DNA of 64,000 nt from Methylotenera sp. Its GTDB lineage: Bacteria > Pseudomonadota > Gammaproteobacteria > Burkholderiales > Methylophilaceae. Numbering within the stretch: position 1 is the first letter of the stretch; every line of letters starts with the position of its first letter. The DNA lies in NCBI GenBank assembly GCA_009693255.1, contig SHXQ01000004.1, forward strand, positions 1-64,000. Reading direction: 5' to 3'. Position numbers and translations under genes: made by a program. The notes under the pieces were generated by a model, which worked only from the letters and a program-made list of their open reading frames with translations, did no database searches and had not been told where the DNA came from. Below, piece by piece: positions 12,803 to 16,178 of this stretch.

Positions 12803-13744
12803 TTATTCAACTTTAGTTTCATTCACTAGGGCTTGTGTGTAAATGGCTTCTATCTCAGCACGGGTCGGTTTATGGTTTTGGCCGCCACGACTTTCAATTT
12901 TAATCGCGCCCATGGTTGACGCTAATCTTCCGCAGGTTGGCCAATCCCAACCTTTGCTTATGCCGTAAAGTAAGCCAGCACGGTAAGCATCACCACAACC
13001 GGTAGGGTCAACGATGCTCATGGCTTTAACGCAGGGAATATCAAAGCGTTGACCATCGGCATAAATTTGCGAGCCAGAGCCGCCCAGCGTAACGATGAGT
13101 GCTTTTACTTTCAGCGCCAGTTGATCTAACGATAAGCCAGTTTTGTCTTGAATAATTTGTGATTCATAGTCATTGACGGCTAAGTAATCAGCCATGTCAA
13201 TGAATTGCAGCAACTCTTCACCATTAAACATAGGCAGACCTTGGCCAGGATCAAACAAAAATGGAATGCCCGTATCAAAACATTCGCGTGCATGTTGAAA
13301 CATGCCATCACGACCATCAGGTGCAATAATTGCCAATGTGACATTGGCAGCATCATTGACACTGTTCTGATGTGAGGCGATCATCGCGCCAGGGTGGAAG
13401 GCGGTAATTTGGTTATCATCAATATCAGTGGTGATAAATGCTTGTGCAGTAAAGCTGTTGGGGATAGTTTTGATATGGGCTGCATTTAGATTGTTATGCT
13501 TAATCCACTTTGAGTAGGTAGAAAAATCTTCACCCACGGTGGCCATAATCAATGGATTACCTTCCAGTAATTGCAAATTATAAGCAATGTTGCCCGCGGT
13601 GCCACCAAACTCACGGCGCATTTCTGGCACATAAAATGCCACACTTAGGGTGTGAATTTTATCCGGCAGAATATGGTTTTTGAATTGATCTTGAAACACC
13701 ATAATGGTGTCGAAGGCGAGTGAGCCGCAAATAAGGGTATGCAT
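12803..13744 (-). CDS. PfkB-family sugar/nucleoside kinase
   Basis: A 313-residue ribokinase-fold kinase. Motifs: N-terminal GSLAFDTI, FGGTAGNIAYNLQLL (substrate contact, about 46-60), and the C-terminal DPTGCGDAYRAGL, with the anion-hole GCGD and its catalytic Asp. The arrangement is closest to adenosine-kinase-like bacterial PfkB proteins, but the substrate (adenosine, ribose or another sugar) cannot be fixed from sequence. Neighbours give no pathway clue. Confidence 0.82.
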   Translation of the reverse strand: MHTLICGSLAFDTIMVFQDQFKNHILPDKIHTLSVAFYVPEMRREFGGTAGNIAYNLQLLEGNPLIMATVGEDFSTYSKWIKHNNLNAAHIKTIPNSFTAQAFITTDIDDNQITAFHPGAMIASHQNSVNDAANVTLAIIAPDGRDGMFQHARECFDTGIPFLFDPGQGLPMFNGEELLQFIDMADYLAVNDYESQIIQDKTGLSLDQLALKVKALIVTLGGSGSQIYADGQRFDIPCVKAMSIVDPTGCGDAYRAGLLYGISKGWDWPTCGRLASTMGAIKIESRGGQNHKPTRAEIEAIYTQALVNETKVE

Positions 13745-14401: not shown

Positions 14402-14430
14402 ATTATACTAATCTGTATACAGGCTTGCAA
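14402..14430 (-). promoter_or_regulatory. TetR promoter with palindromic operator in the spacer
   Basis: On the minus strand TTGCAA (14430-14425), 17 bases, then TATAAT (14407-14402). The 10-base perfect palindrome CTGTATACAG (14413-14422) lies inside the spacer. Only AAAACC separates the -10 from the ATG at 14395, placing the expected start of transcription at or next to the A of the start codon. Confidence 0.65.
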
Positions 14431-14444
14431 TCATTATTTTTTGG

Positions 14445-15221
14445 CTAATTTTTAGAATTAGCCATTAACATAGGGGTGAAATTGCAGCGCACTTTTTCTA
14501 GATAACTATTCGCCGTCGCTAAATCACTGAGATTGGTCGGTAGTTTGCCACCCACGACATTCTCTAAATAAATCGTTTTATCTTTGTCTGGAATTTGCAG
14601 TGCTTCTAGAAATTGGCAAGTGCCATTGCGCATTTGTTCATATTTGGCATACATGGTGGATGCATCTTGCGCGCTCAAGTTTTTGCTGTTTAGTGGCGCT
14701 GTAACTGCTACTGATCTTATATAGCCGCCACGGCCGGTATTCGCCCATGTGGTTTTTTGAGGATTGTTTTGCGTGAGTATCGGCAACAAGGCCATGCCGA
14801 TGCCAATAAGTAAGACTAAACTTGCCGCAATGCCGTAAATGGAAGATTGCGTGCGGAAGGTTTTTAACAGGCACCATTGTTTTTGCGTTTGCGTCAAAAT
14901 TAGCGCATTTGCCGCTTTTTTTGCATGCGCTAAACTTCCGCCCCCGGGATGATCAATCTCTTGTTGGGCGGCGTTAAGTGCAATGAACACAATATGCTCA
15001 GCCAGCACGGTTGGCTGGCTCGCCCCCAATGCAGTCGCCTGCTTGGCACAATAGCTAATCAGTTGCAGCTTGGGCGTGGTGTGCGGTGTCATTTTCACCT
15101 GAATTTCAGGTGCGGCTAACCAGTCCTCCAAAATGTCGAATAGGCTGAGTATCCGACCTTGTGGCGTGTTGCTAGATTTCTCCAGCATATTAATGAGCCA
15201 TTGAGAATCAAAGATATCCAT
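14445..15221 (-). CDS. Membrane protein with a detached TetR-type ligand domain
   Basis: 258 residues. Residues about 15-110 align with the C-terminal ligand domain of the adjacent TetR regulator (RILSLFDILEDWLAAPE against KIQKLFDFIEEWVTSPD; GSLAHAKKAANALI against GAMTYAKKAAKILI), but no DNA-binding domain precedes it. A basic stretch and one membrane helix (about 128-150) follow, then an outward domain of about 105 residues with Cys202 and Cys246. The positive-inside rule puts the TetR-like part in the cytoplasm. It sits 27 bases after hemJ and 49 before tetR, all in one direction. I know no described family with this architecture. It may sense, sequester or pass on the regulator's ligand. 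Confidence 0.75.
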   Translation of the reverse strand: MDIFDSQWLINMLEKSSNTPQGRILSLFDILEDWLAAPEIQVKMTPHTTPKLQLISYCAKQATALGASQPTVLAEHIVFIALNAAQQEIDHPGGGSLAHAKKAANALILTQTQKQWCLLKTFRTQSSIYGIAASLVLLIGIGMALLPILTQNNPQKTTWANTGRGGYIRSVAVTAPLNSKNLSAQDASTMYAKYEQMRNGTCQFLEALQIPDKDKTIYLENVVGGKLPTNLSDLATANSYLEKVRCNFTPMLMANSKN

Positions 15222-15248: not shown

Positions 15249-15659
15249 TTAGAAAGGCTTAACAACAACCAGTATGACAACAATGCTGAGTACCATGACC
15301 GGCAGTTCATTAAACCAGCGGTACCATACGTGGCTACGCTGATTTCTATCGTGTTTGAAGTCATTGACCAGTTTTCCGCAATAAAAATGATAACCAATGA
15401 GCACGGCAACAAGTGTTAATTTTGGGTGCATCCAACGACCAGAAATACCATAGCCAAGCCACAACCAAAGCCCGAATACAAGGGCTAATATAGCCAGTGG
15501 CAACATAAAGCAGTATAGTTTTTGCTCCATTAGTTTTAGCCGGTCAGAGGTGGCAGTGTCCGTTACCATGGCGTGATTGACTAACAATCTGGGCAAGTAA
15601 AATAGCCCAGCAAACCAGCTGGTCACAAAAATAATATGTAGTGATTTAATCCAAAGCAT
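15249..15659 (-). CDS. hemJ: HemJ-type protoporphyrinogen IX oxidase
   Basis: A 136-residue protein with four membrane helices of the HemJ (UPF0093) family, which oxidises protoporphyrinogen IX in heme synthesis. Seen: LHIIFVTSWFAGLFYLPRLLVNH at the N-terminus with conserved His8, the loop WMHPKLTLV with the conserved Lys, and a YRWFNELP C-terminal segment. The length is normal. It lies between tlpA (21-base gap) and the TetR-domain membrane protein (27-base gap), so they are probably co-transcribed. Confidence 0.88.
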   Translation of the reverse strand: MLWIKSLHIIFVTSWFAGLFYLPRLLVNHAMVTDTATSDRLKLMEQKLYCFMLPLAILALVFGLWLWLGYGISGRWMHPKLTLVAVLIGYHFYCGKLVNDFKHDRNQRSHVWYRWFNELPVMVLSIVVILVVVKPF

Positions 15660-15680: not shown

Positions 15681-16178
15681 TCAGCGCAGCGCAGCGCTGA
15701 GCAATTGATCTAATTTAACAAAATCTAATGCCCCTACCGAGCGTTGCAAAAGCTTACCTTGTTTATCGTAAATAAACAGTGTTGGCGTTAAATTTACCCC
15801 GCCGAATTTTTCAACCATTTCCGACAATCCATCATGCATCACTGGGAATGGAATCTCTTTTTTGGTCACATAATTAAGCACTTGTGCCGGCGGGTCGTCA
15901 GGCATGGCGATGGCAATTAATTCAAGCCCCTGGGCATGGTAAGCATTATAAATGCGCACTAATTCCGGCATCTCCTTAATGCAACTCAGGCAATCAGTAG
16001 CCCAAAAATTTACCAACAGCACTTTGCTTTTTAAGTCTGCCGCAGCAATTTTTTTGCCGCTGAGCGTGGTAAAAACAACATGAGGTAAATTATTTTTAGC
16101 CTGCAGTTGAATAGCAAAAAATGCCAGTAAGCCAATAATAACTATTGCTAACAGTGTTTTTTTCAGAGAATCAGACAT
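15681..16178 (-). CDS. TlpA-family thioredoxin-like protein
   Basis: 165 residues: an N-terminal anchor (about 7-26) and a periplasmic thioredoxin fold with active site TDCLSC (Cys63, Cys66) and cis-Pro loop GVNLTPTLFIYD. TlpA-like proteins reduce periplasmic disulfides, for example in cytochrome oxidase copper centres or cytochromes. It heads the tlpA-hemJ set. The 239 bases upstream (16179-16417) hold a 7-base inverted repeat at 16199-16218 and the promoter of the next gene. Confidence 0.88.
   Translation of the reverse strand: MSDSLKKTLLAIVIIGLLAFFAIQLQAKNNLPHVVFTTLSGKKIAAADLKSKVLLVNFWATDCLSCIKEMPELVRIYNAYHAQGLELIAIAMPDDPPAQVLNYVTKKEIPFPVMHDGLSEMVEKFGGVNLTPTLFIYDKQGKLLQRSVGALDFVKLDQLLSAALR

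Follow-up and report, generated by a model that had tools for sequence, protein, structure and literature searches.

We describe a gene of the Methylophilaceae, here called X, whose product combines the C-terminal domain of a TetR repressor, stripped of its DNA-binding head, with a single membrane helix and a predicted periplasmic domain carrying two invariant cysteines, and which is encoded beside a complete TetR repressor. The arrangement is conserved and, as far as we have seen, previously undescribed. X probably carries an outside signal to this repressor, whose predicted targets relate to methanol oxidation. Regulators of the TetR type are among those most often met in bacteria, and the usual view of them is as soluble sensors of small molecules. 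If our reading is true, a TetR together with a headless, membrane-anchored relative would offer such regulators a route to sensing the periplasm.

The X-tetR locus

The window, the whole stretch of 64,000 nucleotides of Methylotenera sp. that was analysed, contains X within a compact set of genes on the minus strand (Table 1). The order tlpA-hemJ-X-(srpbcc)-tetR-pfkB is conserved among the named loci, as the preliminary description had anticipated for tlpA, hemJ, X and tetR. In the window the gaps are 21 bases between tlpA and hemJ, 27 between hemJ and X and 49 between X and tetR, the last of which holds the tetR promoter. hemJ and tlpA lie immediately upstream of X in 74 of 78 named loci, and hemJ does so in the remaining four. 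In many relatives a divergent gene for an exported SRPBCC protein (Polyketide_cyc2, MxaD-like) stands between X and tetR, with the operator dyad described below in the shared region. Judged by spacing alone, X at this type of locus (group A) probably shares its transcript with tlpA-hemJ and not with tetR. The conserved neighbours of X include no sigma factor, and we know of no part played by the pfkB-family kinase gene in the X-TetR system.

Table 1. Coordinates of gene X, its parts, its neighbours and the predicted control elements in the window
Feature	Position	Strand	Description and basis
Gene X	14445-15221	minus	258 aa, ATG start; HTH-less TetR-like domain, membrane helix and two-cysteine extracytoplasmic domain
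TetR C-terminal (ligand/dimerisation) domain, X residues 1-112	14886..15221	minus	AlphaFold2, alignment, hhalign
Single membrane helix, X residues 125-150	14772..14849	minus	AlphaFold2 model and hydropathy
Compact extracytoplasmic domain, X residues 184-258	14448..14672	minus	Restricted to the X family; model and searches
Invariant Cys202 codon	14616..14618	minus	Alignment of 28 diverse members
Invariant Cys246 codon	14484..14486	minus	Alignment and model
tetR, partner repressor, 187 aa	13832..14395	minus	TetR_N HTH (Pfam PF00440, E 8e-13) and C-terminal domain
Predicted operator TATACAGATTAGTATA	14404..14419	minus	Dyad TATAC-N6-GTATA in the tetR promoter; phylogenetic footprint
tetR -10 box TATAAT	14402..14407	minus	Overlaps the operator; read from sequence
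tetR -35-like TTGCAA	14425-14430	minus	Spacing of 17 to the -10 box
hemJ-like gene (UPF0093), conserved neighbour	15249..15659	minus	Pfam PF03653; synteny; 27 bases before X
tlpA-like thioredoxin-fold gene, conserved neighbour	15681..16178	minus	Pfam PF08534/PF00578; synteny
pfkB-family kinase gene after tetR, conserved neighbour	12803..13744	minus	Pfam PF00294

A TetR domain without its head

BLASTP aligned X residues 8-108 with residues 65-181 of the neighbouring TetR, which belong to its C-terminal domain (E = 5e-9). Profile-profile comparison (hhalign) of X N-domains with partner TetRs gave a probability of 98.2% (E = 5e-14) and with unrelated TetRs 97.7%; the X C-terminal domain, taken as a negative control, reached 1.4%. 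With an HMM of the X family the top match was the TetR crystal structure 3jsj (E = 2e-4), and Pfam TetR_C_31 matched 4 of 28 X members (1e-4). Searches of Pfam, NCBIfam and PHROGs and a single-sequence search of the PDB with X itself returned no named family. AlphaFold2, run on X sequences alone, predicted the N-domain with confidence (pLDDT mostly 90-98), and the leading PDB matches of this model in Foldseek were nearly all TetR structures, the best being SCO4454/3g7r, with no single match at E < 0.001. The best PDB sequence match of the partner TetR was likewise 3g7r. Sequence, profile and predicted structure thus concur and confirm the assignment of residues ~8-112 to a TetR C-terminal domain lacking the helix-turn-helix (HTH). 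This origin had been proposed in the preliminary description, together with the loss of the HTH and the joining of a membrane helix and an outside domain with two cysteines, and all three were borne out; the relation to TetR ligand domains also held up in the profile comparison by which it was to be challenged.

No N-terminal HTH (PF00440) or other HTH was matched in X by Pfam or NCBIfam. Aligned with TetRs, X begins in the middle of helix 4, which indicates that the DNA-binding head is missing as a unit. A frameshifted or lost HTH 5' of X was ruled out, since hemJ ends too close to the X start to leave room for one.

The alignment assigned the N-domain of X the end of helix 4 and helices 5, 7, 8 and 9, with a shortened segment between helices 5 and 7. 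About 9-17 residues present in the partner TetRs are gone from this segment, including KASAEFPNEDNPVHQLS, the most conserved stretch of those proteins. A complete TetR ligand pocket with helices 5-7 was not found in X, whose model is without helix 6. The best kept part of the domain is helices 8 and 9, the pair that builds the dimer bundle of TetR proteins. Given that X lost the segment with KASAEFPNEDNPVHQLS and kept the dimer helices, it is unlikely to sense the same ligand as TetR, as had earlier been suggested.

A membrane helix and a two-cysteine outside domain

The predicted helices of X span residues 7-16, 20-36, 52-65, 70-90 and 96-123, followed by 125-150. The last of these is the one hydrophobic helix of the protein (~125-150), and in the model helix 9 (96-123) runs almost continuously into it. 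Beyond the membrane helix, a disordered stretch (153-178) leads to a compact domain of ~75 residues. In most members the N-terminal side of the hydrophobic helix is the more positively charged, and the topology is therefore predicted to be N-inside, with the TetR-like part in the cytoplasm and the last domain in the periplasm.

The sole residues invariant across 28 diverse X members are C202 and C246. Both are also invariant in every paralogue group and lie on two neighbouring short strands of the model, an arrangement consistent with a disulfide, which may be merely structural. Most close pairs of X genes gave a dN/dS of about 0.1-0.25, indicating purifying selection, and X evolves ~3 times faster than TetR.

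X and tetR are lasting genetic partners

tetR lies on the same strand just downstream of X in 74 of the 75 loci long enough for the check (79 X loci were named in total). The lone exception is L155, where tetR is farther off, behind a large inserted gene. Absence of X beside tetR in all relatives had been named as grounds for discarding the idea, and is thus not what these loci display. Across 52 genomes of the genus, X and tetR-A are both present in 46 and both absent from the same 6; these are raw counts that ignore kinship, and the 46 include one genome (G035) with X at a contig edge and a tetR match from another group.

Two further paralogue groups (B and C) were found, in which X again adjoins its own tetR. 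In group B the X-tetR spacing is -8 to +14 bases in nearly all cases, a tight coupling as expected of co-produced partners, and some pairs adjoin SRPBCC or PQQ-dehydrogenase genes. Group C pairs are divergent from mxaRSACKL or lie directly downstream of a xoxF-type gene. Paralogous X genes in these other settings are again accompanied by a tetR from the same subfamily, which makes tetR, and not tlpA-hemJ, the neighbour that stays constant. The proposed functional link of X to TetR is supported by all three groups, whereas the tlpA/hemJ neighbourhood is not shared by the paralogous pairs, several of which lie beside methanol-oxidation genes. A lasting genetic partnership of X and TetR is well supported.

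Distance-based co-evolution (mirror-tree) gave a partial r of 0.26 for X-TetR, lower than the 0.41 for X-PfkB, and the signal is thus not specific. A tandem single-chain read-through model of X and TetR (stops replaced by glycine, natural linker) reached a pTM of 0.54, a value that includes no interface score, and in the PDB it matched nothing but single TetR chains.

Distribution and ancestry of X

X was found in 126 of 187 Methylophilaceae genomes (87 of the 119 good ones) and in 19 of 24 genera, among them Methylotenera, Methylophilus, Methylovorus and Methylobacillus; the genera listed without it are small-genome lineages. Samples of the order, class and phylum (~400 genomes each, one per species) yielded only ordinary TetRs and no X outside the family. 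The outside matches aligned to the TetR-like part of X only, and some of their neighbourhoods were inspected. In the sampled genomes the outside domain occurred nowhere except inside X.

In the tree all X form one clade with 99/99 support, separate from all TetRs, which implies that the duplication is old. XA/TA and XB/TB fall into matching groups, which indicates duplication as pairs. A single origin of X that predates the division into paralogue groups is most likely, with X and tetR duplicated jointly thereafter. The duplication posited in the preliminary description stands insofar as X is a TetR-like paralogue; its local origin does not, since the tree shows an old, family-wide clade, and a recent duplication of the adjacent tetR was ruled out as the source of X.

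Two individual loci were noted besides. In one (L253 5768-8599) a xoxF-type gene is followed directly by a group-C X, an operator lies in the space separating the two, and the tetR of this X is convergent. In the other (L063 2968-3786) an orphan group-B X without an adjacent tetR is found between two helicase genes.

A predicted operator and a probable link to methanol oxidation

In 74 of 76 named loci the 200 bases preceding tetR contain the dyad TATAC-N6-GTATA, against none of 76 for a control pattern. A PQQ-alcohol-dehydrogenase-like gene is preceded by the same dyad in 22 of 23 genomes of the genus (controls 0); the chance expectation of the dyad, assuming independent bases, is 0.0007 per 400 bases. 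At the latter gene in the window's own genome the site is the palindrome AAGTATACaaccatGTATACTT. The same genome carries an mxaRSACKL-type operon (L250 6539-12060, C7); the operator TATACAGGTGTGTATA precedes it by 141 bases and falls in the interval from mxaR to fabA. Dyads also precede mxaR-type genes in seven other genomes, a tally rather than a fraction. SRPBCC genes have two dyad copies upstream, again as observations of individual sites and not as a fraction, and in some paralogous pairs the dyad stands directly before X. Over whole genomes the dyad exceeded its control only mildly (190 matches, with 125 for the control, in 52 genomes), and single unconserved sites were therefore not counted as targets.

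The existence and placement of the dyad are well supported, and it is very probably bound by TetR. The sites point to a repressor that would control its own gene and methanol-oxidation accessory genes. The MxaRSACKL genes are described as providing methanol dehydrogenase with accessory functions and as core genes of the family that form several clusters in each genome (PMC4109929). In the literature examined we found no explanation of how the methanol dehydrogenases of the Methylophilaceae are controlled. These bacteria are abundant freshwater methylotrophs, and the predicted regulon would touch their methanol oxidation.

Proposed mechanism and its alternatives

Dimer helices without a head, a membrane anchor, an outside domain and an adjacent TetR of the same subfamily together suggest that X is a transmembrane partner of TetR. 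We propose that it acts as a headless heterodimer with the repressor at the membrane and thereby relieves repression, and give this scheme as a whole an even chance of being right. The cytoplasmic part of X is an old TetR paralogue that lost its head and kept the two dimer helices, 8 and 9. Any change in the two-cysteine domain of the periplasm would pass mechanically through the membrane helix to helix 9, as the almost unbroken course of the two helices would allow. The heterodimer would be unable to hold the two-fold operator, and the genes for TetR, the PQQ-dehydrogenase-like protein and the SRPBCC/MxaD-like protein and the mxaRSACKL maturation operon would be derepressed. Whether TetR is held by X or released would depend on the periplasmic signal, for which the condition of the methanol-oxidation machinery in the periplasm, the metal of that machinery and the thiol state are candidates. 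Direct binding of X to TetR is the firmer part of the scheme and appears probable. That X antagonises rather than assists TetR is at or just short of an even prospect; it is the simplest action, since the dyad needs two heads and the heterodimer would be headless on one side. Speaking against the scheme are the unspecific co-evolution signal, a genome that keeps the PQQ-dehydrogenase-like gene and its dyad but in which tetR-A and X were not detected, the orphan group-B X and, in group A, the probable transcription of X with tlpA-hemJ.

The main rival has X bind TetR as a tether to the membrane or as a co-repressor, with repression or the stability of TetR depending on it. The same co-occurrence and pairing would be seen, and sequence does not fix the sign of the effect. 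TetR dimers normally use two heads, however, and the operator found is a full dyad to which a headless heterodimer would bind poorly, while TetR is complete in itself without X; we consider this reading unlikely. Slightly less likely again is that X works by itself as a periplasmic sensor or assembly factor, with its TetR-like domain serving homodimerisation only and its link to TetR reflecting common regulation without contact. The faster evolution of X, its own conserved outside domain and the position of group A X after tlpA and hemJ would fit such a role, but paralogous X in other settings stand again beside a same-subfamily tetR, and the group B genes nearly overlap.

X might instead report the periplasmic thiol/disulfide state to TetR through C202 and C246. 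The invariance of both cysteines in all groups, their modelled proximity on neighbouring strands and the TlpA-like gene two genes upstream in group A speak for this, yet a permanent structural disulfide would explain the same conservation and groups B and C are not beside tlpA, which makes it improbable. A role of X in binding the small ligand of TetR at the membrane, so as to buffer or report it, is very improbable. Its domain, although derived from a ligand-binding domain, lacks the helix 5-7 segment in which the partner TetRs have their best conserved motif, and what X conserves are the dimer helices and the outside domain.

Relation to known systems

Against the TetR family (SCO4454/3g7r, DicD/YjdC, NemR), of which the partner TetR is an ordinary member, X residues 8-112 correspond to the C-terminal domain in sequence and predicted fold; X differs in having no DNA-binding head, a short helix 5-7 segment, and an added membrane helix and extracytoplasmic domain. 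Membrane-integrated one-component regulators of the CadC/ToxR type have a cytoplasmic DNA-binding domain, one membrane helix and a periplasmic sensor domain. X resembles them in its cytoplasmic part and, by model and hydropathy, in its single membrane helix and outside domain. In contrast to these receptors, no cytoplasmic DNA-binding domain of its own was found in X by Pfam, NCBIfam or alignment, and X must act through another protein.

Transmembrane anti-sigma factors, membrane-held antagonists encoded next to their regulator, have a cytoplasmic binding domain, one membrane helix, an outside sensor and a gene beside that of the held regulator; X would resemble them in this, with a putative binding domain and a putative sensor. 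The target of X would instead be a TetR repressor and its binding domain a paralogue of that target, and there is no homology. Id proteins, the headless partners of HLH proteins, likewise keep the dimer surface and lack the DNA-binding part, and the sequestration of Mlc by PtsG at the membrane resembles the proposed action of X in that a membrane protein pulls a repressor off DNA. Neither is homologous to X, which would join both ideas in one bacterial protein.

Our literature searches, which fell short of most subscription journals, found no membrane-anchored or headless TetR, in agreement with the initial impression that no system of this kind had been described. We tentatively suggest, at somewhat less than an even chance, a new class of transmembrane signalling in which a repressor is controlled by a dimerising, membrane-anchored, headless paralogue, which ties a periplasmic state to transcription with no kinase, protease or DNA-binding domain of its own. 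In the Methylophilaceae such a system would supply part of the regulation of methanol-oxidation accessory genes that has so far been missing. With the operator and the gene pair at hand, cultured Methylotenera and Methylophilus strains allow this reading to be tested directly.

Further observations on operator sites

In relatives of Methylotenera mobilis (L255 5993-6050, L230, L299) the promoters of SRPBCC (MxaD-like) genes carry two dyads 24 bases apart; at L255 the divergent gene encodes a thioredoxin-like protein and is followed by one for a CcdA/DsbD-like membrane protein. In many Methylotenera genomes a dyad separates a cupin (ribosomal oxygenase-like) gene from one for a molybdopterin oxidoreductase (L233-L238, L294, L300, L303, L307). 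A recurrent site, TATACAGTAATGTATA or its GGAATG variant, was seen ~50 bases upstream of queA (L224, L226-L228) and may represent a target, or else no more than a promoter that is conserved.

One genome (G171, C80/C81) keeps the PQQ-dehydrogenase-like gene with its dyad on two near-identical contigs, and tetR-A and X were not detected there. In the protein encoded by this gene in the window's genome (G000:C6:8096-9511, L257) and in its relatives (L263-L291), Gly replaces the first Asp of XoxF, which we take to be the catalytic one. The motif reads PHDVWGYD against PHDEWDYD in XoxF, with the Gly found in every relative examined, and this quinoprotein, whose gene lies under the predicted operator, may lack catalytic activity or be otherwise unusual.
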